Assembly: GCA_022865345.1 (NCBI GenBank)
Contig: JALHSU010000162.1
Coordinates: 1 to 41,092 of the forward strand
Direction: 5' to 3'
DNA: 41,092 nt
Origin: Candidatus Zixiibacteriota bacterium
GTDB lineage: Bacteria > Zixibacteria > MSB-5A5 > RBG-16-43-9
In this document: one piece after another, positions 9,184-27,958 of the stretch
Numbering within the stretch: position 1 is the stretch's first letter
Layout of the letters: each line of letters starts with the position of its first letter
Program-made: the position numbers and the translations under genes
Notes under the pieces: model-generated
Databases searched by the model: none
What the model was told of the DNA's origin: nothing
What the model saw: only the letters and a program-made list of their open reading frames with translations

Positions 9184-9214
9184 AGTCTCTACCCTTTTCA
9201 GATAGGTAGAGACT
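9184..9214 (-). terminator. Rho-independent terminator of the DUF1573 gene
   Basis: A 10-bp stem AGTCTCTACC/GGTAGAGACT with an 11-base loop is followed on the minus strand by a run of seven T. It lies 26 bases after the DUF1573 stop codon and directly after the convergent glycosyltransferase, so it may stop both transcripts. Confidence 0.75.
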
Positions 9215-9240
9215 TCATTTAGACGAGAAGATCTACTTCC

Positions 9241-9984
9241 TTATTTCTTAGGAGCTGAGGCTGCTGGTGCACCAACTGCATAAATCAACGGAATCGTAAC
9301 TCTGGTGTTCTCCTTACCCTGCAATTCAATAGTGAGGACTTTCTTAAACCCTTCAGCCGGGAATTCTTTGATCGGTTTTAACTTTATCTCAGCCGACTTG
9401 CCCGGTTTTAGCTTTTTGTCTGCCTTAACCTTAAAGAATTCATGCGGGTAATCGACCACTGAGATCTTATATTCAAGAACATCCAGATTTTTCAAGGAGA
9501 GCTTTTTCTCCTTGGGCTTCTGGCCTTGCAGCATTGAGAAATCCAGGAAGGAAGGGTAGGATTTGATTGTGAAGGTCGTATCCTCCTGGGGTGCTATCTG
9601 AGCGTGTAGATCAATTTTCTGAATCTGATCTACAGAATCTTCTCTATAAGATATACTGGCGTATTTGCTTACCCTGCCAGGGGTAAGTCCCGAAGTATAA
9701 CTTACTATAAGCTCTGTGCTATCACCGATAGCAAGCTCCGTCTTCTTTAGCGGAGCCTTTGTGCACCCTCAGGCCACAGAGACATTAAGCGCTCTCAGGG
9801 TATCGGTGCCCACGTTCTTTAACCAGAAGCTGTGGCTGAGCACGGCATTCTGGGGCGACCGGCCCCAATCCCAGGTGGTTTCAGAAATCTGTAATTTTGC
9901 TTTACCTGCTTCCAGCCCAGTCTGTGCTAGAGCCAGAACAAGGATCAGAAATATCGCCGTGAGCAAAAACCTTTCTTTTCTCAT
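9241..9984 (-). CDS. DUF1573 protein with in-frame TGA: predicted selenoprotein, copy A
   Basis: ATG 9984 has AAGGAGG five bases upstream. Codons 1-71 encode a signal peptide (about 1-27) and the start of a DUF1573 domain (WDWGRSPQ, SHSFWLKNVGTDTLRALNV). Codon 72 is TGA (9769-9771); then the same frame runs on without another stop for 175 codons: G-C-T-KAPLKKTELAIGDSTEL, then two further beta-rich segments. The family's conserved motif here is S-CGC-T, so TGA stands where the first Cys is expected, giving U72-G-C74-T. An Ig-like secreted redox protein is likely. The paralogue at 11250-11954 has TGA at the same position. Frameshift is excluded because the frame is unchanged. TGA is a normal stop in ruvX, cbiM, mtgA and hicB. 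Confidence 0.8.
9733..9758 (-). promoter_or_regulatory. Candidate bacterial SECIS hairpin, copy A
   Basis: Ten bases after the TGA the message can fold AAGGCTCCG against CGGAGCTT (one G-U pair) around the loop CTAAAGAAGA. Bacterial SECIS elements lie inside the coding region with the loop about 15-25 nt after UGA, which fits. The stem also encodes the conserved APLKKTE residues, so protein constraint may explain part of its conservation. Confidence 0.5.
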
Positions 9985-10093
9985 CTTCACCTCCTTAAGA
10001 AAAGGAAAAACCCTTTTTTATATTTACGAAGATTTCACTCAAAATCATTAACTAATAATCTGCGATTTAAGGGGAGTTTTTATGATTTTTTCA

Positions 10094-10165
10094 TCTTAAC
10101 GACCAAGCTCACCTGCCGCTATGAAGCGCAGCGGAATAGCGGTCGGGTGCAGCGCTTTGTTAGGT
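10094..10165 (-). mobile_element. Integron attC-like recombination site
   Basis: Read on the minus strand, the 72-bp site starts with the 5' core ACCTAAC (10159-10165, perfect RYYYAAC) and ends with GTTAAGA (10094-10100, six of seven for GTTRRRY). Between them the arms GCACCCGACCGCTAT and ATAGCGGCAGGTGAGC form the imperfect inverted repeat typical of attC. The upstream dehydrogenase stop codon TAA lies inside the 5' core, as in many gene cassettes. Confidence 0.8.
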
Positions 10166-11230
10166 TTTGTTATTATGTTCCAAAGTTATTATTATTTTTC
10201 CTCGGGCGTGTTCTTCTTCAAGATACCGGAGAGCTTCAGGAACCTCACTTAACGTGTAACGTCTATCTATAACGGGTTTTACTTTGCCGGCTTTAAGAAG
10301 CTCTTTCATAAAAACCAAATCTTTTTGGTTTGGTTTCGACATCAGGCTACCCATTTTCTTACTCCCGGTCATTGAAATCCATGGTCCTAGGAGCATAGCT
10401 TGGAACATTTGAGCCAACGAACCTCCGGTCATGACATAAGTTCCCTTGGGACTTAATGCACGCTTGTAATCTGAAATCGAATGATATCCGTTAGCAGCAA
10501 GAATCAGGTCATAACGCTGCCCACTTTGGGTGAAATCTTCCCTGGTGTAATCAATGACCTGGTCTGCCCCAATCGAGCGCACCATGTCCAAATTCCTCGT
10601 GCTGCACACGCCAGTCACTTCAGCCCCGAACGATTTGGCAATCTGCACCGCAAACGTACCAACACCACCAGATGCGCCATTAATCAAAACCTTTTGCCCT
10701 GGCTGAATCTGTCCTTTATCGCGAAGACCCTGCAGGGCGGTGATTGCCGCCATAGGTACGGCCGCTGCTTCCTCGAACGATATATTGGCTGGTTTCAACG
10801 CCAATGCATTTTCACGGGCACATACATACTCGGCAAAACCACCCCAACCACAATCGGATATGTTCCCGAATACCTCATCATCTGGCTGAAACTGCTTTAC
10901 GTTTCTGCCAACCGCTTCAACCCGCCCCGCAATGTCAGATCCGAGTATCTTGTTTTTTGGTTTTAGAAGCCCAAAGCCCATTAGGCGAATCAAGAGCGGT
11001 TTACCTCTCAGGATATGCCAGTCACCTGCATTCACGGATGCCGCATGAACTTTTACCAGTACTTCATCCTCCTTGGGAGTAGGTTTTTCTTCCTCTTTTA
11101 ATTCAAGAACATCCGGTGGTCCGTATTTTGTGTATACAATCGCTTTCATGAGCCTCCTCCATGAATACTTTGATCGGGTCATTTTACGTGTAGTTCACGA
11201 CAATCTAACCGATAAGTTTGTAAAACCTAA
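10100..11230 (-). mobile_element. Predicted single integron gene cassette
   Basis: The cassette boundaries follow the G/TT crossover rule. On the minus strand the left end is G/TTAGGT (11225-11231, perfect GTTRRRY, brought by the cassette), and the right end is the G of the attC followed by TTAAGA, which would be host sequence. The 1131-bp unit holds one gene in canonical orientation with its attC immediately downstream. No integrase or second cassette is visible, so insertion at a secondary site between the two DUF1573 copies is inferred. Confidence 0.65.
10160..11149 (-). CDS. Zinc-independent MDR-family alcohol dehydrogenase/quinone reductase
   Basis: ATG 11149 is chosen because GGAGG precedes it; it gives the usual MDR N-terminus MKAIVYTKYGPPDVLEL. 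The 329-residue product has the GroES-like substrate domain followed by a Rossmann domain with the NADPH loop INGASGGVGTFAVQ. The Cys cluster of structural-zinc alcohol dehydrogenases is absent, which fits the quinone oxidoreductase/RTN4IP1-like branch. Substrate unknown. It is the only gene of the predicted cassette and splits two DUF1573 paralogues on the same strand. Its base composition looks richer in GC than the flanking genes, consistent with recent arrival. Confidence 0.88.
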   Translation of the reverse strand: MKAIVYTKYGPPDVLELKEEEKPTPKEDEVLVKVHAASVNAGDWHILRGKPLLIRLMGFGLLKPKNKILGSDIAGRVEAVGRNVKQFQPDDEVFGNISDCGWGGFAEYVCARENALALKPANISFEEAAAVPMAAITALQGLRDKGQIQPGQKVLINGASGGVGTFAVQIAKSFGAEVTGVCSTRNLDMVRSIGADQVIDYTREDFTQSGQRYDLILAANGYHSISDYKRALSPKGTYVMTGGSLAQMFQAMLLGPWISMTGSKKMGSLMSKPNQKDLVFMKELLKAGKVKPVIDRRYTLSEVPEALRYLEEEHARGKIIITLEHNNKT

Positions 11231-11249
11231 CCTAAGACGAGGACGCCTT

Positions 11250-11954
11250 TTAGCTACCTCCAGTTTTCACCGGAATGGTTATCCTGAACTCCTTTTCCCC
11301 GCTCACCTGTAAGGTAATCGATTTTTTGACCGTTCCTGCTGGAAGAGTTTTCGCAGGCTTCACTTTCAGTTCTACTGTCTTTCCCGGCATAAGGGTTTCC
11401 TTACTTAATTGCGCCTCAAAAAACCTCTTGGGATAATCAATAACTTTAAGCCTGAATTCTTTCTGTCCCTTATTTGTAAACTCAACTTTCATCTCCTCAA
11501 ATTTCCCTTTTTTCTTCTCTTTGAATTCTAAACTGTATGGTGCATAGCTTATATCCAGCAGGGTATCCGGCTTAGGCTTTACGTCTGCCGTTATCTCCAG
11601 CCGGTTGAAGCCGGAAACAGTATCGCTGGAGCTCACCGTGACAGATTTCGTCTCCGGGGTCATTGCCGCTCCGGTAGAGTAACTTATCTCTAACTCAGTG
11701 CTATCGCCGATAGCCAGCTCCGTCTTTTTAAGTGGAGCCTGGGTACAGTGTCAGGGGACCCGGGCGCTGATTCCTTTAAGGGTGTCAGTCCCGACATTTT
11801 TAATCCAGAAGGTATGAGAGACTGTGGACTGCTGGGGGACCCTTCCAAAATCCCACACCCTCTCGGAAAATTCGATCCTCGGAGTCCCAGCCTGAGAAAA
11901 AGGATGAACTGCAAATATAACCGCTATGAGTAAAAAAGAACTTCTTAATCTCAA
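11250..11954 (-). CDS. DUF1573 protein with in-frame TGA: predicted selenoprotein, copy B
   Basis: The start is TTG 11954, preceded by AAGGAGG. A signal peptide (about 1-22) is followed by a DUF1573 start (EFSERVWDFGRVPQ, SHTFWIKNVGTDTLKG). Codon 68 is TGA (11751-11753), then the frame continues H-C-T-QAPLKKTELAIGDSTEL to TAA at 11250, 234 residues in all. TGA again sits at the first Cys of the CxC-T motif, so the predicted motif is U68-H-C70-T. It is about 45-50% identical by eye to copy A, with identical APLKKTELAIGDSTEL. It lies 82 bases downstream of the CcdA-type gene on the same strand, so it is probably in the redox operon. Alternative: two parallel nonsense mutations, which is less likely. 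Confidence 0.8.
11716..11739 (-). promoter_or_regulatory. Candidate bacterial SECIS hairpin, copy B
   Basis: Eleven bases after the TGA, GGCTCC pairs with GGAGCT (one G-U pair) around a 12-base A-rich loop. Position and sequence match the copy A hairpin, although one closing G-C pair is lost. Confidence 0.45.
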
Positions 11955-12036
11955 TCTGCCTCCTTAACTCCTTGATAGAATTATAACTGAAACAATCATT
12001 TTGTCAATCGTTTTTTGCGAACGCTCCTGTCTTATT

Positions 12037-12726
12037 TTAGAGATTAATCCATAGAATATAAAAACCCGCGAAGATTATCAATAATCCGCTTATCTTTTTA
12101 GCTGTATTTGAGAAATTTGTTATCCCTCTGGATTGGGCAAAGCTCTCCACAAAGCCAGTTGATACCCCGGCCAGAATTATCAAAGCACAGTGTCCAAGGG
12201 CATAAACGAAAAGAAGGGAGATACCATATACTATCTTCGCCTTTGTGGCTACGAGAGCTAAAATGACGGCTAAGACCGGGGTAGCGCAAGGGGAGGAAAC
12301 CATTCCGAAAAGAAGCCCTAAAAGGAAAGCACCTAAAATCCCTTTATGTTTAGTTTTCATCTCCACAGTTTTAGGAAACGGGATTTTAATAACACCCAGT
12401 AAATATAACCCCATAACCAAAGCCACTCCCGCGGCCAGGTAATACCATAACTTCCCCACATCTCCAAAAAGCTTTCCTAAGAGGGAGGCGATAGCCCCTA
12501 ATATGGTAAAAGTAATGGATAAACCTAAGGCAAAAGTCAAAGAATAAAGCAGGGCTTTCTTTTTGTTTCCTTCAGAATAGCCTCCCACAAATCCGATCAC
12601 CAGGGGTATTATCGCCAGAACACAAGGGCTGGAGGCTGACAAAATCCCGCCCAAGAAGATCAAGATATAAGCCAAGGCTGGGGTGTTATTTATTGCTGAG
12701 GATATATTTCCTAGAATATGTTCCAT
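12037..12726 (-). CDS. ccdA: CcdA-type thiol electron transporter (DsbD-like membrane domain)
   Basis: The 229-residue product has six predicted membrane helices and the two conserved membrane cysteines, Cys35 in SASSPCVLAIIP and Cys147 in VSSPCATPVLA. These are the redox pair that carries electrons from cytoplasmic thioredoxin to extracytoplasmic partners. The start codon abuts the stop of the thioredoxin gene upstream, so the two are co-translated. The DUF1573 selenoprotein gene follows on the same strand. The natural partners are therefore the membrane-anchored thioredoxin and, by inference, the U-x-C proteins. Confidence 0.9.
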   Translation of the reverse strand: MEHILGNISSAINNTPALAYILIFLGGILSASSPCVLAIIPLVIGFVGGYSEGNKKKALLYSLTFALGLSITFTILGAIASLLGKLFGDVGKLWYYLAAGVALVMGLYLLGVIKIPFPKTVEMKTKHKGILGAFLLGLLFGMVSSPCATPVLAVILALVATKAKIVYGISLLFVYALGHCALIILAGVSTGFVESFAQSRGITNFSNTAKKISGLLIIFAGFYILWINL

Positions 12727-13164
12727 TTATTTAACCCCGATCTCCTGAAGCTTTTGTTCAATTGAGAGTTTATCCATAAACCCTTCATGCCTATAAATTT
12801 CTTTGCCAGAAGCATCGAAGAATATCTGGGTGGGGATTAATCTTATTTTATAGAACCTTGCCGGTTCTGGGTCGTAACGAATATCTATAATCTGGATGAT
12901 AGCTCTTCCTTTATATTCCTCCTGTAATTCCTGTAATATCGGCAGCATCATTTTGCAGGCTTTACAGGTCCCCCTGCCTAAATCGATAAGAACTGGTAAA
13001 TTTTTAGCTATTACGTCTAAACTGTCTTTATTCGTAGAAATTTTCTCGGAAGACGAAGTCTCCCCCTCCTTAAAAGATGCCTTATCTCTTCCTTGAAAGA
13101 TAATTAAACCTGCAATTAAAAAAACAATTGCTAAAATAATCAATAATTTGAGGATATTATTCAT
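12727..13164 (-). CDS. Membrane-anchored thioredoxin-fold protein (CKAC)
   Basis: The 145-residue protein has an N-terminal membrane anchor (about 4-23), a Ser-rich linker, and a thioredoxin domain with active site GTCKACK (Cys67, Cys70) and the cis-Pro region IRLIPTQIFFD. The fold should face the periplasm. Together with the adjacent CcdA gene it forms a two-gene module for passing electrons across the inner membrane. It lies 27 bases after the small thioredoxin gene. Confidence 0.88.
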   Translation of the reverse strand: MNNILKLLIILAIVFLIAGLIIFQGRDKASFKEGETSSSEKISTNKDSLDVIAKNLPVLIDLGRGTCKACKMMLPILQELQEEYKGRAIIQIIDIRYDPEPARFYKIRLIPTQIFFDASGKEIYRHEGFMDKLSIEQKLQEIGVK

Positions 13165-13191
13165 AACCTTTCCGAGCTGAAGTTAGCTTTA

Positions 13192-13428
13192 CTATTCCTT
13201 ACTCAACCATTCTTTAATTTCTGCCAATCCTGGTACCCTGCCAGAACATAATACCTTTCCGTTGATAACCAGAGCCGGGGTCAAAAGGATTCCATACTGC
13301 ATAATAGATTTTATATCCTTGATCTTTGATAACTCAGCTTCTTTGCCTAACTCTTTTAAAGTCCTCTCTACGATTTCATAGATCTTCTCGCATTTTGCAC
13401 ATCCCGGACCTAAAACTTCGATCTTCAT
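13192..13428 (-). CDS. Small thioredoxin-like redox-active disulfide protein
   Basis: The 78-residue cytoplasmic protein starts MKIEVLGPGCAKCEK, with active site CAKC (10-13) and cis-Pro segment TPALVINGK. It matches the thioredoxin_3/redox-active disulfide protein 2 family. Family members are often found beside ArsP/DUF318 permeases and ArsR regulators, as here. An AAAGGAGG Shine-Dalgarno sequence precedes the start. It could hand electrons to arsenate reductase or to the CcdA module. Confidence 0.88.
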   Translation of the reverse strand: MKIEVLGPGCAKCEKIYEIVERTLKELGKEAELSKIKDIKSIMQYGILLTPALVINGKVLCSGRVPGLAEIKEWLSKE

Positions 13429-13458
13429 TTTATGACCTCCTTTTAGACTATCATTAAA

Positions 13459-13971
13459 CTATTTTGTAGCCTTCTTTACCCCCTCCTCTTTTTTACCGGC
13501 AATAAAACTATTAAGCTCCTTCTGAAAATTAATCAGGAATTTCTCTTCCTCTTCACAAAATTCCCATACGGATTCGATCTCTTTAAACTCCTCTTTCTCT
13601 TTAAATACCTTTTTAAAACCTAAGGCAGACCCGAATATTTTGTATTTCCCGGCAGTTGAAGAATCTTCATCTATATTGCATTCCTTGAAAATAATGCGTC
13701 CGTTTTTATAGGGCTTTGAATAAAGTTTTTCTAATCCTTTTTTTGAAAAGTTGCCAACATTTATGCAACAAGAACATTGAGCTGTGGGATGAAAATGAAT
13801 GATCAACAGGCTGTCAAAATCAAAAGTGGAATCTACAGTTTCTTTGCCTGGGCTATCGACCTTTTTCTGAACAGGACCAGATGATTTCTTGTTTTGACTG
13901 TAACTGCTCGTCCACATTAGCAAAAACAGCATGATGCAAACGAGACAGAGGACTGAGCTTTTCTTAATCAT
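13459..13971 (-). CDS. Secreted Cys-rich thioredoxin-like protein (CxCC)
   Basis: The 170-residue product has a signal peptide (about 1-25) and a low-complexity linker. A likely thioredoxin-like domain follows (LLIIHFHPTAQCSCC, then RIIFKECNIDED), with Cys66, Cys68 and Cys69 at the position of a thioredoxin CxxC. I cannot name the family. It sits 3 bases after the permease gene and upstream of the two thioredoxin-like genes, so a role in extracytoplasmic thiol or metalloid chemistry is inferred. A further Cys lies at WEFCEEEEK. Confidence 0.65.
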   Translation of the reverse strand: MIKKSSVLCLVCIMLFLLMWTSSYSQNKKSSGPVQKKVDSPGKETVDSTFDFDSLLIIHFHPTAQCSCCINVGNFSKKGLEKLYSKPYKNGRIIFKECNIDEDSSTAGKYKIFGSALGFKKVFKEKEEFKEIESVWEFCEEEEKFLINFQKELNSFIAGKKEEGVKKATK

Positions 13972-13974
13972 CTT

Positions 13975-15009
13975 CTAAAATAACGCTCCGAATACCATTC
14001 CGGTTATAGTTGCCATTATCACTACTAAGATAATGTAAGCCCCTGTTTTCCTCCACCCCATAATCCCGATTAACACAATCATACTGGGAAGGCTCAAGGA
14101 TGGACCGGCTAAAAGTAAAGCCAGAGCAGGACCTCTGCCCATTCCTAAATCTATCAAGGCACGGATTATGGGGACCTCAGTTAAAGTCGAGAAATACATA
14201 AAGGCGCCGAAGACTGAAGCTATGAAATTCGCCCTTAATCCATTCCCGCCGACCAAATGTTCTACTATCTGTTGCGGTAATAAAACCTTTATCATCCCGG
14301 CAATGAAGACCCCAACCAGCAGAATTGGAAAAATCTTTTTCCCTAAATCCCAGGTTTGATAGAGCCAATCTTTAAGCTCATTTTTTTTGAACCAACGATA
14401 GAGGATTAAAAGTAAAGCGAGCAAAAGGATTCCAGTAACCAGCCACTTTTTTGCCGCACCGAAGATAAGAATCCCCACTAAAACTGCAAAATATAGAATA
14501 GTGACCCCCTCATGTTTGGGTTTCTCGCTTTGGGGTAGGATTAATTCCTGAGCATTCTTTTCTTTTTCTAACTCCTCTTTTCTCCAGATAAAAGCCATAA
14601 TCAACCCGATTATAATTGAAAAAGATATAGCTCCAACTGCCCTGGCAATTCCCAGATCAAATCCTAAAAGCCTGGCAGTATAAACGATAGCCAAGATATT
14701 AATTGCCGGACCAGAATATAGAAAAGCAATAGCCGGACCTAAACCTGCACCTCTTTTATGTATTCCTGCAAAAAGTGGCAAGATAGTGCAGGAGCATACC
14801 GCCAGGATCGTACCAGAAACTGAAGCGACACTGTAAGCTAAAACCTTTTTCGCCTGAGCTCCGAAATATTTCATCACCGCGGCCTGAGAGACAAAAACTG
14901 CAATCGCGCCAGCGATGAAAAATGCCGGAACCAGACAGGTCAGAACATGGGCGGAAAGATATTCAATTAATGCTTTCACTCCACCATTCAAGACTTCCAC
15001 TAAACCCAT
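13975..15009 (-). CDS. arsP: ArsP/DUF318-type permease
   Basis: The 344-residue protein has about eight to ten membrane segments and the family hallmark VCSCTILPLFAGI (Cys72, Cys74) followed by GAGLGPAIAFLYSGPAIN. A second half repeats the fold (FGAFMYFSTLTEVPII, LLAGPSLSLPS). ArsP members export trivalent organoarsenicals, though many DUF318 proteins remain untested. It is 13 bases from the arsR gene upstream, within an arsenic locus, which supports metalloid export. The symbol is by family, not proven substrate. Confidence 0.82.
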   Translation of the reverse strand: MGLVEVLNGGVKALIEYLSAHVLTCLVPAFFIAGAIAVFVSQAAVMKYFGAQAKKVLAYSVASVSGTILAVCSCTILPLFAGIHKRGAGLGPAIAFLYSGPAINILAIVYTARLLGFDLGIARAVGAISFSIIIGLIMAFIWRKEELEKEKNAQELILPQSEKPKHEGVTILYFAVLVGILIFGAAKKWLVTGILLLALLLILYRWFKKNELKDWLYQTWDLGKKIFPILLVGVFIAGMIKVLLPQQIVEHLVGGNGLRANFIASVFGAFMYFSTLTEVPIIRALIDLGMGRGPALALLLAGPSLSLPSMIVLIGIMGWRKTGAYIILVVIMATITGMVFGALF

Positions 15010-15022
15010 GCTAATCTCCTAT

Positions 15023-15376
15023 CTAAATAACCTTAACCGTTCTGGCTTTCTCTTTCACTTGTGTCCTAATGATCTCATCCACTAAATTAAGTAGATCAAA
15101 TACTCTTTTATCATTAATTCGGTAATAAACCGAAACCCCCTCTCTGCGCGAATCTAAGATGCCTGCATCTTTCAAGTGATTCAGATGTCTGGAAATGTTA
15201 GACTGGTCTTCCCCTATTTCAGGGATGATCTCACAAGCGCATTTCTCTCCTTTTCTCAAAAAATACAAAATCCTAAGCCGGGTGGGCTGGGAGACGACCT
15301 TCAGGAAATCGCTTTCCAGTAACAAGACTTTTTCATCGACCATTTTGAACACCTGTTTATATGCATTTATGCTCAT
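15023..15376 (-). CDS. arsR: ArsR-family transcriptional repressor (permease/redox operon)
   Basis: The 117-residue winged-helix protein contains the metal-sensing segment KCACEIIPEIG and the recognition helix QSNISRHLNHLKDAG, followed by the wing SRREGVSVYYRI. It would repress its own operon (permease, CxCC protein, thioredoxins, ccdA, DUF1573) until a thiophilic metalloid binds the Cys pair. ATG 15376 has a weak ribosome site; ATG 15343 (MVDEKVLLLES), with AGGTG upstream, is a possible alternative start. Confidence 0.88.
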   Translation of the reverse strand: MSINAYKQVFKMVDEKVLLLESDFLKVVSQPTRLRILYFLRKGEKCACEIIPEIGEDQSNISRHLNHLKDAGILDSRREGVSVYYRINDKRVFDLLNLVDEIIRTQVKEKARTVKVI

Positions 15377-15452
15377 AATTACATTAAATACGCCATTAGA
15401 ATTTTGGTGTTTGTCTAATTGATTATTTTATTTAGAGTTTTTTTTTAAAGTT

Positions 15453-15478
15453 GGTGCGGGAATTGGAATTCCCGCACC
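15453..15478. repeat. 26-bp palindrome of the GGAATT family
   Basis: Perfect 12-bp arms GGTGCGGGAATT and AATTCCCGCACC around GG. Related palindromes at 15958-15983 and 15989-16014 flank arsC on its other side. Confidence 0.75.
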
Positions 15479-15500
15479 AGCGAGCGAGATTCTAAAATTT

Positions 15501-15899
15501 TCAACTTTGCTTTAACTTGCTCAAGAATTCTTTTATATTCTTTTCTATCTTATCTCTTACCTCTCTGAACTTTTCTTTTGCTTTTCCTTTAGGGTCTTCG
15601 ATCTCCCATTCAATTCTTTCCTTTGCCGGCACAAAAGGACACACATCTCCACATCCCATAGTTATCACATAGTCAAAATCATTAAAGGGTAACTCCTTGA
15701 ACCCTTTTGACTTTTGGTTGGAGATATCAATACCCTTCTCTTTCATAACTTCTATTGCTATCTGGTCGACCTTTCCAGAGGGATTTGAGCCGGCGCTGAA
15801 GACCTCTACTCTATCTTCGCCATAGAATTTAGCAAACCCTTCAGCCATCTGGCTCCGGCAGGAGTTCTCAATGCATACAAATAAAATCTTTGGTTTCAT
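15501..15899 (-). CDS. arsC: Thioredoxin-coupled arsenate reductase ArsC
   Basis: The 132-residue protein is of the low-molecular-weight phosphatase type. It has the P-loop CIENSCRS with nucleophile Cys9 and Arg15, and the relay cysteines Cys83 and Cys87 in MGCGDVCPFVPA, followed by EWEIEDPKGK. It reduces arsenate to arsenite in the cytoplasm, and thioredoxin regenerates it; thioredoxin-like genes lie in the same locus. Arsenite is then exported by Acr3 encoded just upstream on the same strand. AAGGA precedes ATG 15899. Confidence 0.94.
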   Translation of the reverse strand: MKPKILFVCIENSCRSQMAEGFAKFYGEDRVEVFSAGSNPSGKVDQIAIEVMKEKGIDISNQKSKGFKELPFNDFDYVITMGCGDVCPFVPAKERIEWEIEDPKGKAKEKFREVRDKIEKNIKEFLSKLKQS

Positions 15900-15910
15900 C
15901 TTTCATCCTT

Positions 15911-16014
15911 AGGGAGACGCATTCAATGCGTCTCTACGCTTGTGAAATATTCGAGTTGGTTCGGGAATTGGATTTCCCGAACCACGCCCGTGCAGGAATT
16001 CCAATTCCTGCACG
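15911..16014. repeat. Three palindromes between acr3 and arsC
   Basis: GAGACGCATT-c-AATGCGTCTC (15914-15934), GGTTCGGGAA...TTCCCGAACC (15958-15983) and CGTGCAGGAATT-cc-AATTCCTGCACG (15989-16014). The last two share a GGAATT core with 15453-15478 while the outer arm bases change in matched pairs. Confidence 0.75.
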
Positions 16015-16033
16015 AACTTAAAGGTTTCGTCTC

Positions 16034-17092
16034 TTAAGTTTGCTCTTCCGCTTTGAAGTATTTTGTTCTAAATCTTAAAGCTACATTCACCAGACTTATC
16101 AGAACCGGAACCTCTAACAGAGGCCCGATCACGGTGGCGAAAGCCTCTTCGGAGTTTATGCCGAATACTGCAACTGCCACCGCAATGGCTAATTCAAAAT
16201 TGTTGCTGGCAGCGGTAAAGGAAAGCGCTGTCGTCTTTGGATAATTGACTCCAAGTTTGTAAGACATATAGAAACTGACAAAGAACATAAGCAGGAAGTA
16301 AATGACCAGGGGAATAGCCACTTTGACCACATCTAAAGGAAGCTGAACAATATAATTTCCTTTAAGGGAAAACATAATGATGATGGTGAAGAGCAGGGCA
16401 ATCAGGGTTACAGGAGAAATTTTAGGGATAAATTTTTCTTCATACCAGCTTTTGTTTTTTGCTTTTATCAAGGCAAAGCGGGTGATTATTCCCGCGATGA
16501 AAGGTACACCCAGGTAGACAAACACGCTTCTGGCAATCTGCCCTATGGTTACATTTACTGCAATCCCCTCTGCCACTCCAAACAATTTGGGAAGAATGGT
16601 TATGAAAAGGTAAGCATAAATGGAATAGAAAAAGACCTGAAAAAGTGAGTTCAAACCAACCAGGGCTGCAGCATACTCTGTATCCCCTCCAGCCAGTTGA
16701 TTCCATACGATCACCATCGCGATGCAGCGTGCCAGCCCGATGAGGATAACTCCATACATCAGATGAGGCTGATTGCGCAAAAAAAGGATAGCCAGAAAAA
16801 ACATCAGAATCGGACCTATGACCCAGTTCTGGATAAGTGATAAAGTCACTACTTTAATATCTTTGAAGACCTTGCCCAGCTCCTCATATCTCACTTTTGC
16901 CAACGGAGGATACATCATCAGGATTAAACCGATGGCTATGGGAATAGAGGTGGTTCCTACCTGTAAACCAGCAATGAATTTAGTTATATCCGGTGCAAAA
17001 TAGCCTATCCCCACCCCTGCGAACATCGCGGAGAATATCCACAGAGTTAGAAATCTAGTCAAGAACGAAAGTTTTTTGCCTCCTTGGGACAT
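16034..17092 (-). CDS. acr3: Arsenite efflux transporter Acr3
   Basis: The 352-residue protein has ten predicted membrane helices and the Acr3 signature region [20 protein letters not shown], with the conserved transport Cys in helix 4. A second signature is [16 protein letters not shown] in helix 9. It exports arsenite from the cytoplasm, working with ArsC. GGAG lies about eight bases before ATG 17092. It is the second gene of the arsR-acr3-arsC operon, 26 bases after arsR. Confidence 0.94.
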
Positions 17093-17118
17093 TTAACGAC
17101 TCCAATATTTAGCGAGAG

Positions 17119-17466
17119 TTAACTGCACTTATAAGCATAAACCTGAGAAAGTTTTTTCTTCAGCCTTTTCTCATCTTCCTTAACCAGATCGTTATCAGCA
17201 AGAGCATTTTTTACAATCAGCCAGACCGCTTTCTCAAAATCATCTCTGGGTTTGAACAGGGAGTAAAAAATCCAGGTGCCCTCTCTTCTATCCTCTACCA
17301 GGCCTACTGAGCGAAGAACCGTAAGGTGTCTGGAGACTTTGGACTGAGGCAGGTTCAGCGCAGCCTCTAACTCACAAACACAGAGTTCTTTTCTCAAGAG
17401 AAGCTTCAAAATCCGAAGCCTGGTCTCATCCCCCAAAGCTTTAATCATCTTAGTTTGTCTCTGCAT
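17119..17466 (-). CDS. arsR: ArsR-family arsenic-responsive repressor
   Basis: The 115-residue winged-helix protein has the classic sensor ELCVCELEAAL with its Cys pair, the recognition helix QSKVSRHLTVLRSVGL and the wing EDRREGTWIFYSL. It heads the acr3-arsC operon. A perfect 18-bp dyad between the -10 box and the start (17486-17503) is a convincing self-operator. A Cys-containing C-terminal tail (YAYKCS) could add a metal ligand. Confidence 0.92.
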   Translation of the reverse strand: MQRQTKMIKALGDETRLRILKLLLRKELCVCELEAALNLPQSKVSRHLTVLRSVGLVEDRREGTWIFYSLFKPRDDFEKAVWLIVKNALADNDLVKEDEKRLKKKLSQVYAYKCS

Positions 17467-27463: not shown

Positions 27464-27846
27464 GGGGGCGATCGGTTTCGACGGGGATCAAGGGTAAAGG
27501 AAAGCAGGCCGAGGTACCCAGTAACCTCGTTAATCCATTGGGAACAAATCTAAATGCAAACGAATACTCGTATGCATTGGCTGCCTAATAAAAGGTAGCT
27601 CGTCTTACCTGAGCCTGCCTGTTGGTTCGGGCTAAGGCGTCGAGAAAAACAGGATAGCCTTCTTCTATCTCCTGGGGGAAGAGGGCGAATCAAAACCGGG
27701 ATAGTTCCGGGTTAAACCTGCTTGTCGGTCTTTCCCGGAGCGAAATCCCCTCCTGCCAAAAGCGGGAAGGAAAAAAGATTAAGCTAAGCCTGTAGAAGTC
27801 CTTTAGTTCTTATCTTCGGACGTGGGTTCGATTCCCACCGCCTCCA
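27464..27846 (+). ncRNA. ssrA: tmRNA (transfer-messenger RNA)
   Basis: The 383-base RNA has the tRNA-Ala-like ends GGGGGCG and CGCCTCC with the third pair G-U, the identity element for alanyl-tRNA synthetase. The 5' block GATCGGTTTCGACGGGG and the T-arm GTGGGTTCGATTCCCACC are also present. CCA is not encoded. The resume codon GCA at 27556 starts the proteolysis tag ANEYSYALAA, ended by TAATAA at 27586-27591. One-piece form. It rescues stalled ribosomes and tags the nascent chain. A T-run follows directly and probably ends the transcript. The gene's 3' end is a frequent integration target, and an AT-rich gene follows. Confidence 0.97.
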
Positions 27847-27958
27847 GTTTTTTATTACCGGAGCAGTTCAAAGTTACGTTAAAAGCTCTAACATTAATGA
27901 CTAATAAATTGCTTTTAGAAAAGAAAATCTCTCTGCTATTCCATTCCAATGCACTCTC

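Follow-up and report, generated by a model that had tools for sequence, protein, structure and literature searches.

The locus

The window considered here, 41,092 nucleotides (nt) long, comprises positions 1-41,092 of the forward strand of contig JALHSU010000162.1 of Candidatus Zixiibacteriota bacterium (GCA_022865345.1; the named contigs of its nearest relatives carry the label Candidatus Zixiibacteriota). Its minus strand carries a pair of DUF1573 paralogues, copies A and B, which are 40% identical and have one in-frame TGA each (Table 1). Each TGA is followed by two small hairpins in tandem, a proximal one (H1) and a distal one (H2), which probably make up, between them, a bacterial selenocysteine (Sec) insertion sequence (SECIS).

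Both products score above the Pfam cut-off for DUF1573, 26.1 bits. The TGA stands in the context SVAUGCTKAPLKKTELAIGDST in copy A (first ATG at about position 9984) and RVPUHCTQAPLKKTELAIGDST in copy B. With 37.8 and 46 bits (A and B) against the cut-off of 100 for OS_HP2 (NF041425), they are relatives outside that curated subfamily. Since a table of predicted selenoprotein families (PMC9312934) already includes DUF1573 (PF07610) with the motif UGC, the protein side is not new; copy A shares both the domain and the motif (UGCT), whereas copy B has UHC. Each TGA aligns with a Cys codon of homologues, and both are very probably Sec codons, since a tRNA-Sec gene (anticodon tca; 66.9 bits with the Rfam model), selD, selA and the N-terminal part of selB, which runs up to the contig end, all lie on a single contig (C178) of the genome. 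The selD gene itself contains a TGA.

Table 1. Positions of the two DUF1573 copies, their TGA codons and the hairpins that follow them
Feature	Positions	Strand	Remarks
Copy A, DUF1573 gene with in-frame TGA	9241..9990	-	Open reading frame (ORF) with TGA read through; Pfam DUF1573 62.1 bits
UGA codon of copy A, very probably Sec	9769..9771	-	51 homologues have Cys at the aligned position
H1 of copy A (proximal hairpin)	9733..9758	-	Synonymous nulls, folding, covariation, shuffles
H2 of copy A, GCUAUC-GGU-GAUAGC	9718..9732	-	Probably the hairpin bound by SelB; loop 9726-9724
Copy B, DUF1573 gene with in-frame TGA	11250..11954	-	ORF with TGA read through; Pfam DUF1573 87.7 bits
UGA codon of copy B, very probably Sec	11751..11753	-	Aligned with homologue Cys
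H1 of copy B	11715..11740	-	Synonymous nulls, folding, shuffles
H2 of copy B, GCUAUC-GGC-GAUAGC	11700..11714	-	Loop 11708-11706

Two hairpins after each TGA

A reading of the window from its sequence only (the sequence-only reading) had drawn matching hairpins after both TGA codons, and these are indeed present. H1 begins 11 nt after the TGA in both copies, pairing GGCUCCG (9757-9751) with CGGAGCU (9740-9734) across a 10-nt loop in copy A, and GGCUCC (11739-11734) with GGAGCU (11721-11716) across a 12-nt loop in copy B, just as had been drawn. The set was nevertheless incomplete: the interval assigned to it in copy A, 9733-9771, stops exactly where H2 begins. H2, a perfect 6-bp hairpin, lies 1 nt beyond H1 in both copies, with its loop 42 nt from the UGA.

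The bacterial SECIS (bSECIS) consensus of Zhang and Gladyshev calls for an apical loop of 3-9 nt, a stem of 4-16 bp, a G within the first two loop positions and a minimum free energy (MFE) of -7.5 kcal/mol or lower (PMC13188914), with 16-37 nt between UGA and loop (PMC13188914; PMC10778597). The sequence-only reading had placed H1 at the position of a bacterial SECIS, and the distance does agree; but the loops of H1 as first drawn (CUAAAGAAGA and ACUUAAAAAGAC) are of 10-12 nt and have no G in their first two positions in either copy, so that H1 alone falls outside the model, and it was rejected on its loop as the sole SECIS. In the MFE fold of copy A, H1 gains two further pairs at the inner end of its stem and keeps the loop AAAGA, again without an early G. 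H2 conforms in both copies in loop (3 nt), stem (6 bp) and early G (GGU in A, GGC in B). Its MFE alone is -4.9 kcal/mol, and that of the stretch from UGA to +57 is -19.8 (A) or -14.5 (B); the review does not specify the stretch to which its energy rule applies.

Against dinucleotide shuffles, the 26-nt H1 gave z -3.52 in copy A (0/200 equally stable) and z -2.42 in copy B (5/200); for H2 the values were -3.53 (0/200) and -2.95 (6/200), and for the full 57-nt stretch from the TGA -2.91 (2/200) and -1.49 (16/200). Copy B is thus unimpressive by single-sequence folding alone, and it is the homologues that decide. Among known families, 4227 Rfam models at gathering score gave no match in 9200-12000, and in the whole window only a transfer-messenger RNA (tmRNA); at E up to 10 there were two matches, both far below gathering score. 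A covariance model (R1) run on the source genome found the two window copies, other matches all having E above 1.

Sec genes, but not Cys homologues, keep the pairing

Of 132 genomes of the phylum searched for DUF1573, at least 131 contain relatives. The homologue set consists of the 150 best-scoring DUF1573 genes among the matches listed, the query being a Sec form, so that the ratio between its two kinds, 99 genes with TGA and 51 with Cys at the same position, is uninformative on frequency. A typical Sec gene reads UGCTKAPLxKxELAVGDST and a typical Cys gene CGCTKAPLxKxxLAPGDST. One duplicate reduces the 99 to 98 distinct Sec genes; the alignment of 93 sequences further leaves out five divergent Sec genes (L093, L094, L101, L116 and L122), which stay in the counts over 98 or 99, and counts over 94 are the aligned set plus the duplicate.

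Both hairpins encode conserved peptides (KAPLKKTEL for H1, A(I/V)GDS for H2), and the sequence-only reading had cautioned that protein conservation confounds the signal. The stem does encode a conserved peptide; the following comparisons nevertheless exclude a by-product of it. When codons at synonymous sites were redrawn at the frequencies that these genes show outside the element (500 runs), H2 was fully paired in a mean of 2.8 and at most 9 genes, as against 90 of the 98 distinct Sec genes, and the 5-bp core of H1 in a mean of 2.4 and at most 8, as against 47 of 98. In Cys homologues, H2 is fully paired in 3/51 and the H1 core in 2/51. Shuffling codons among genes with the same residue, which keeps the protein and the make-up of each column, gave less pairing in 1000/1000 runs for both stems. 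Folding of the H1 region free of any register gave mean z -2.78 in Sec genes (85/99 below -1.5) and -0.08 in Cys genes (9/51). Sliding windows along the Sec genes show a dip in two places only, codon 4 (-2.90) and codon 11 (-2.00) after the UGA; the background lies at -0.19 (sd 0.20, lowest -0.59, 64 windows). In Cys genes there is no dip at codon 4 (-0.18), and a faint one is left at codons 10-11 (-0.56 and -0.46, the lowest background value being -0.34), which would be expected had some of them been Sec genes until recently. H2 survives in two Cys genes (L045 and L138), and another (L130) has kept AVGDST yet lost the stem through synonymous codons.

Covariation points the same way. All 94 aligned genes have Ala at codon 5 after the UGA, which leaves the third base of that codon free to vary: U stands there in 54/54 genes with A in the middle of codon 11, and G in 8/8 with C (Fisher p about 6e-18 for U vs the rest, relatedness ignored). 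Of the 34 changes inferred for this pair on the protein tree, 26 lead to a paired state (a hand tally, without a shuffled control). Over the 93 genes, the covariation score of 0.149 exceeds its shuffled value of 0.083 (0/500 reach the observed). H2, with 99.5% of cells paired in 93 genes, takes the forms GUC..GAC (87/93) and AUC..GAU (6/93), a change that keeps the pair, and its loop begins with GG in every one of the aligned sequences; C-A mismatches occur in L046 and L053. The sequence-only reading had looked to synonymous changes that keep the pairs as its check, and to synonymous variation that breaks the stem freely as the contrary outcome; wobble changes follow the partner base, and free breakage was not seen. 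Because the wobble base tracks its partner and pairing exceeds all 500 synonymous runs, H1 is a selected RNA structure and not a protein by-product. In the Sec genes, therefore, synonymous covariation preserves both hairpins; in the Cys homologues it does not.

Distance from UGA to loop across the phylum

A survey of 186 Sec genes in five families of the phylum found a hairpin with a loop of published type in 178, and no candidate in 8. The distance from UGA to loop is bimodal, 61 genes having 13-20 nt and 117 having 32-44 nt, with none between. When the spacer hairpin is folded out (spacers being folded on their own throughout), 114 of the 117 long distances become 13-25 nt; the exceptions are L233, L295 and L298, the hairpin of the last, at 43 nt, being doubtful. 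The spacing is thus bimodal and normalised by the intervening hairpin. In E. coli fdhF the distance is about 18 nt.

In DUF1573 the spacer folds one hairpin of -5 kcal/mol or better in all 91 Sec genes with intact H2, compared with a mean of 19 and a maximum of 29 under synonymous reshuffling, and with 13/51 Cys genes; folding it out leaves 16-25 nt in 90/91 (median 18). The spacer folds in 27 of 28 representatives that differ by at least 9 nt (null 5.8, maximum 13). Two DUF1573 genes were assigned a hairpin at 20 nt in the survey.

Sec selD genes (n=60) are of both kinds: the loop is at 13-20 nt (mostly 17-20) in 36 and at 32-43 nt in 24. In the long-spacer group, 33 or 32 nt are reduced to 16-22 by folding out in 21/23. 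The selD of the source genome, with AGUCC-UCA-GGACU, 1 nt and GAUGCAG-GUU-CUGCGUC, goes from 33 to 20. The spacer hairpin of this group has mean z -2.53 (18/20 below -1), and the mean pairing and folding energy of H1 exceed the null; the group was picked by H2 pairing, so that its own H2 statistics are partly circular. Two heterodisulfide-reductase-associated FlpD genes of the source order (L454 and L455) contain an in-frame TGA followed by a tandem pair of hairpins. The first has 10 bp (with one mismatch in L454); the second has its loop 44 nt after the TGA, a distance that becomes 19 and 15 nt with the spacer folded out.

The remaining families have single hairpins. FdnG genes (n=10) carry hairpins of the type CGCCA-GUU-UGGCG with the loop at 18-19 nt; in the source genome FdnG is not a Sec gene, its single match having no internal stop. 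In the Grx-like family a single hairpin lies at 17 nt in 12/13 genes. Among them, L441 (source genome, contig 45, minus strand) is glutaredoxin-like with a UPYC motif and has CCAGGC-AGUUG-GCCUGG with its loop 17 nt after the TGA; it is a probable further selenoprotein gene of this genome.

We also draw attention to the loops in selD. In families f6, f7, f18 and f19 (L241, L243, L244, L245, L246, L247 and L300) the hairpin at the H1 site carries a GGU loop. In selD of the source order (compared with L023) the loop at that site is UCA, CCA, GGA or similar, and H2 has GUU. It is as if the SelB loop had shifted from one hairpin to the next.

A probable tandem-hairpin SECIS

The structure of both hairpins is well supported. 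As to their roles, we think it likely, from the comparisons of sequence above, that they form a tandem-hairpin bacterial SECIS, in which SelB would bind H2 and H1 would fold out the spacer. H2, with its GCUAUC or GCUGUC stem and triloop of GGU type, would be the part read by SelB, and H1, standing between UGA and H2, would remove about 22-26 nt and thereby bring H2 to about 16-20 nt, the working distance of the phylum's single-hairpin selenoprotein genes. Since the ribosome tunnel, in the source cited, covers about 11 nt of mRNA (PMC4513850), H1 would stand at the ribosome entrance with the UGA in the A site, and H2 would be stacked behind it. We infer that the UGA is decoded as Sec, that H2 binds SelB, and that H1 acts through distance and not, for example, through pausing.

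H2 resembles a bSECIS in being a small hairpin in the reading frame after the UGA, with a triloop starting GG. It differs in copies A and B in lying at 42 nt with a second selected hairpin in the spacer, the consensus, as stated in PMC13188914, describing one hairpin. Likewise, the single-hairpin elements of the phylum (selD, fdnG and Grx-like) share its loop types (GUU, GGU, AGUUG) but have one hairpin, its loop mostly 17-20 nt from the UGA, and no spacer hairpin. Searches of the open-access literature brought up no account of a bacterial SECIS with two hairpins, and we regard the element as a variation on the bacterial SECIS. The evidence leans, if modestly, towards a wider class of SECIS with a dedicated proximal hairpin as a folding spacer, present in at least three unrelated families (DUF1573, SelD and FlpD) of Ca. 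Zixiibacteriota, in which the hairpin predicted to bind SelB lies 32-44 nt from the UGA at an effective distance of about 16-20 nt. In selD, this class may have arisen by the passing of the SelB loop from H1 to H2.

Several observations weigh against this interpretation. The 42 nt between UGA and the loop of H2 exceed the published 16-37 nt, and come to 16-20 only with H1 folded out. Only 79.4% of H1 cells are paired in the 93 genes. Where the partner base in codon 11 is U, the wobble base of Ala5 is A or G in 20/31 genes and unpaired in 11/31, and two of five measures (double-change pairs and further pair types) fall within shuffles (209 and 274 of 500). RNAalifold on the 93-sequence alignment retained H2 and not H1; the register of H1 shifts between genes (e.g. 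L092 and L103), which a fixed-column consensus penalises. The MFE fold of the 57 nt from the UGA contains H2 in 70/94 genes and lacks it in 24/94; with the 9 nt after the UGA excluded, H2 is in the MFE fold of 92/94. Four Sec DUF1573 genes have no H2: L122, and L093, L094 and L116, which are of one family, have LAPGES or LAPGDS, show by eye a single long hairpin from codon 5, and may use another form of SECIS with one long hairpin. Most of the 117 long-distance genes come from one gene family and hence are not independent, so that the independent support from spacing amounts to three gene families (DUF1573, SelD and FlpD). In long-spacer selD, H1 is complete in only 3/20 (null mean 0.35, maximum 4), and L233 and L295 lack a spacer hairpin.

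Two smaller points concern individual folds. In some MFE structures GG(N)UGCACC after the UGA pairs with the 3' arm of H2; this alternative was rejected, as H2 is recovered once the nucleotides covered by the ribosome are left out. By eye, L101 has a different H2, GGCUC-CGGGU-GAGUC.

Among other explanations, the one that deserves most attention, unlikely as we consider it, accepts H2 as the SECIS and supposes that H1 was selected to pause the ribosome with the UGA in the A site, or to prevent misfolding of H2 with sequence 5' to it. The start of H1 11-13 nt after the UGA, at the edge of the approximately 11 nt that the ribosome covers (PMC4513850), would suit a pause, and the loss of H2 from the full-stretch fold in 24/94 genes, which disappears once the first 9 nt are held out, would suit a guard against misfolding. 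The single-hairpin genes of the phylum, however, manage without an extra hairpin, and spacer hairpins accompany long spacers (a correlation only). Whether in place of the spacer role or in addition to it, pausing by H1 is to be taken seriously. It is a good deal less probable that H1 by itself serves as the SECIS and is bound by SelB, with H2 a by-product of the peptide AIGDS or AVGDS: H1 is near the ribosome, starting 11 nt after the UGA, and is under selection, and the single-hairpin selD families f6, f7 and f19 carry a GGU loop at the H1 site; yet it is H2 that is the more constrained (99.5% vs 79.4% of cells paired) and has the larger excess over the synonymous null, and Cys homologues usually have APGDS there, the H2 stem being gone in 48/51.

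Two further explanations have very little probability. One, that protein conservation alone accounts for the hairpins and that they have no function as RNA, could appeal to the peptides that they encode, but is contradicted by the synonymous nulls, the Cys controls and the wobble covariation, and by L130, the Cys gene in which peptide and stem have parted; the narrower idea of H1 as a peptide by-product was rejected on the first two of these. The other takes the TGAs as ordinary stops, or as mutations in decaying genes, much as annotation with table 11 does in ending the ORFs there; in 99 of 150 homologues, however, a TGA stands at this Cys position and the reading frame runs on before and after it, and the Sec machinery is present in the genome.

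If the tandem-hairpin reading is right, a folding spacer lets the SelB hairpin sit wherever the protein sequence permits. An element with its loop 42 nt away falls outside the bSECIS model, and such genes may in consequence be annotated as truncated. The mechanistic question of whether SelB needs a fixed physical distance (RNA folding serving as a ruler) or a fixed number of nucleotides becomes testable, and the phylum supplies natural variants of both kinds of spacing.

Genomic surroundings

Between the two DUF1573 copies lies a PIG3-like quinone oxidoreductase gene (10160-11182, minus strand; best NCBIfam match below cut-off). It looks inserted, because in a relative (G100) the two copies are only 172 nt apart on one contig; a search for repeats flanking it found nothing clear. 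Beside the selenoprotein genes, at 12037-17466 on the minus strand, is a redox and arsenic-type cluster, with genes for a CcdA/DsbD-like membrane protein, a thioredoxin, a Thioredoxin_3 protein (13204-13428), an ArsF-like protein, an ArsP-type permease, two ArsR-type regulators, an LMW phosphatase/arsenate-reductase-like protein and an SBF transporter. Further along the window, the tmRNA gene is at 27464-27849 on the plus strand (its end is also given as 27846) and encodes the tag ANEYSYALAA.
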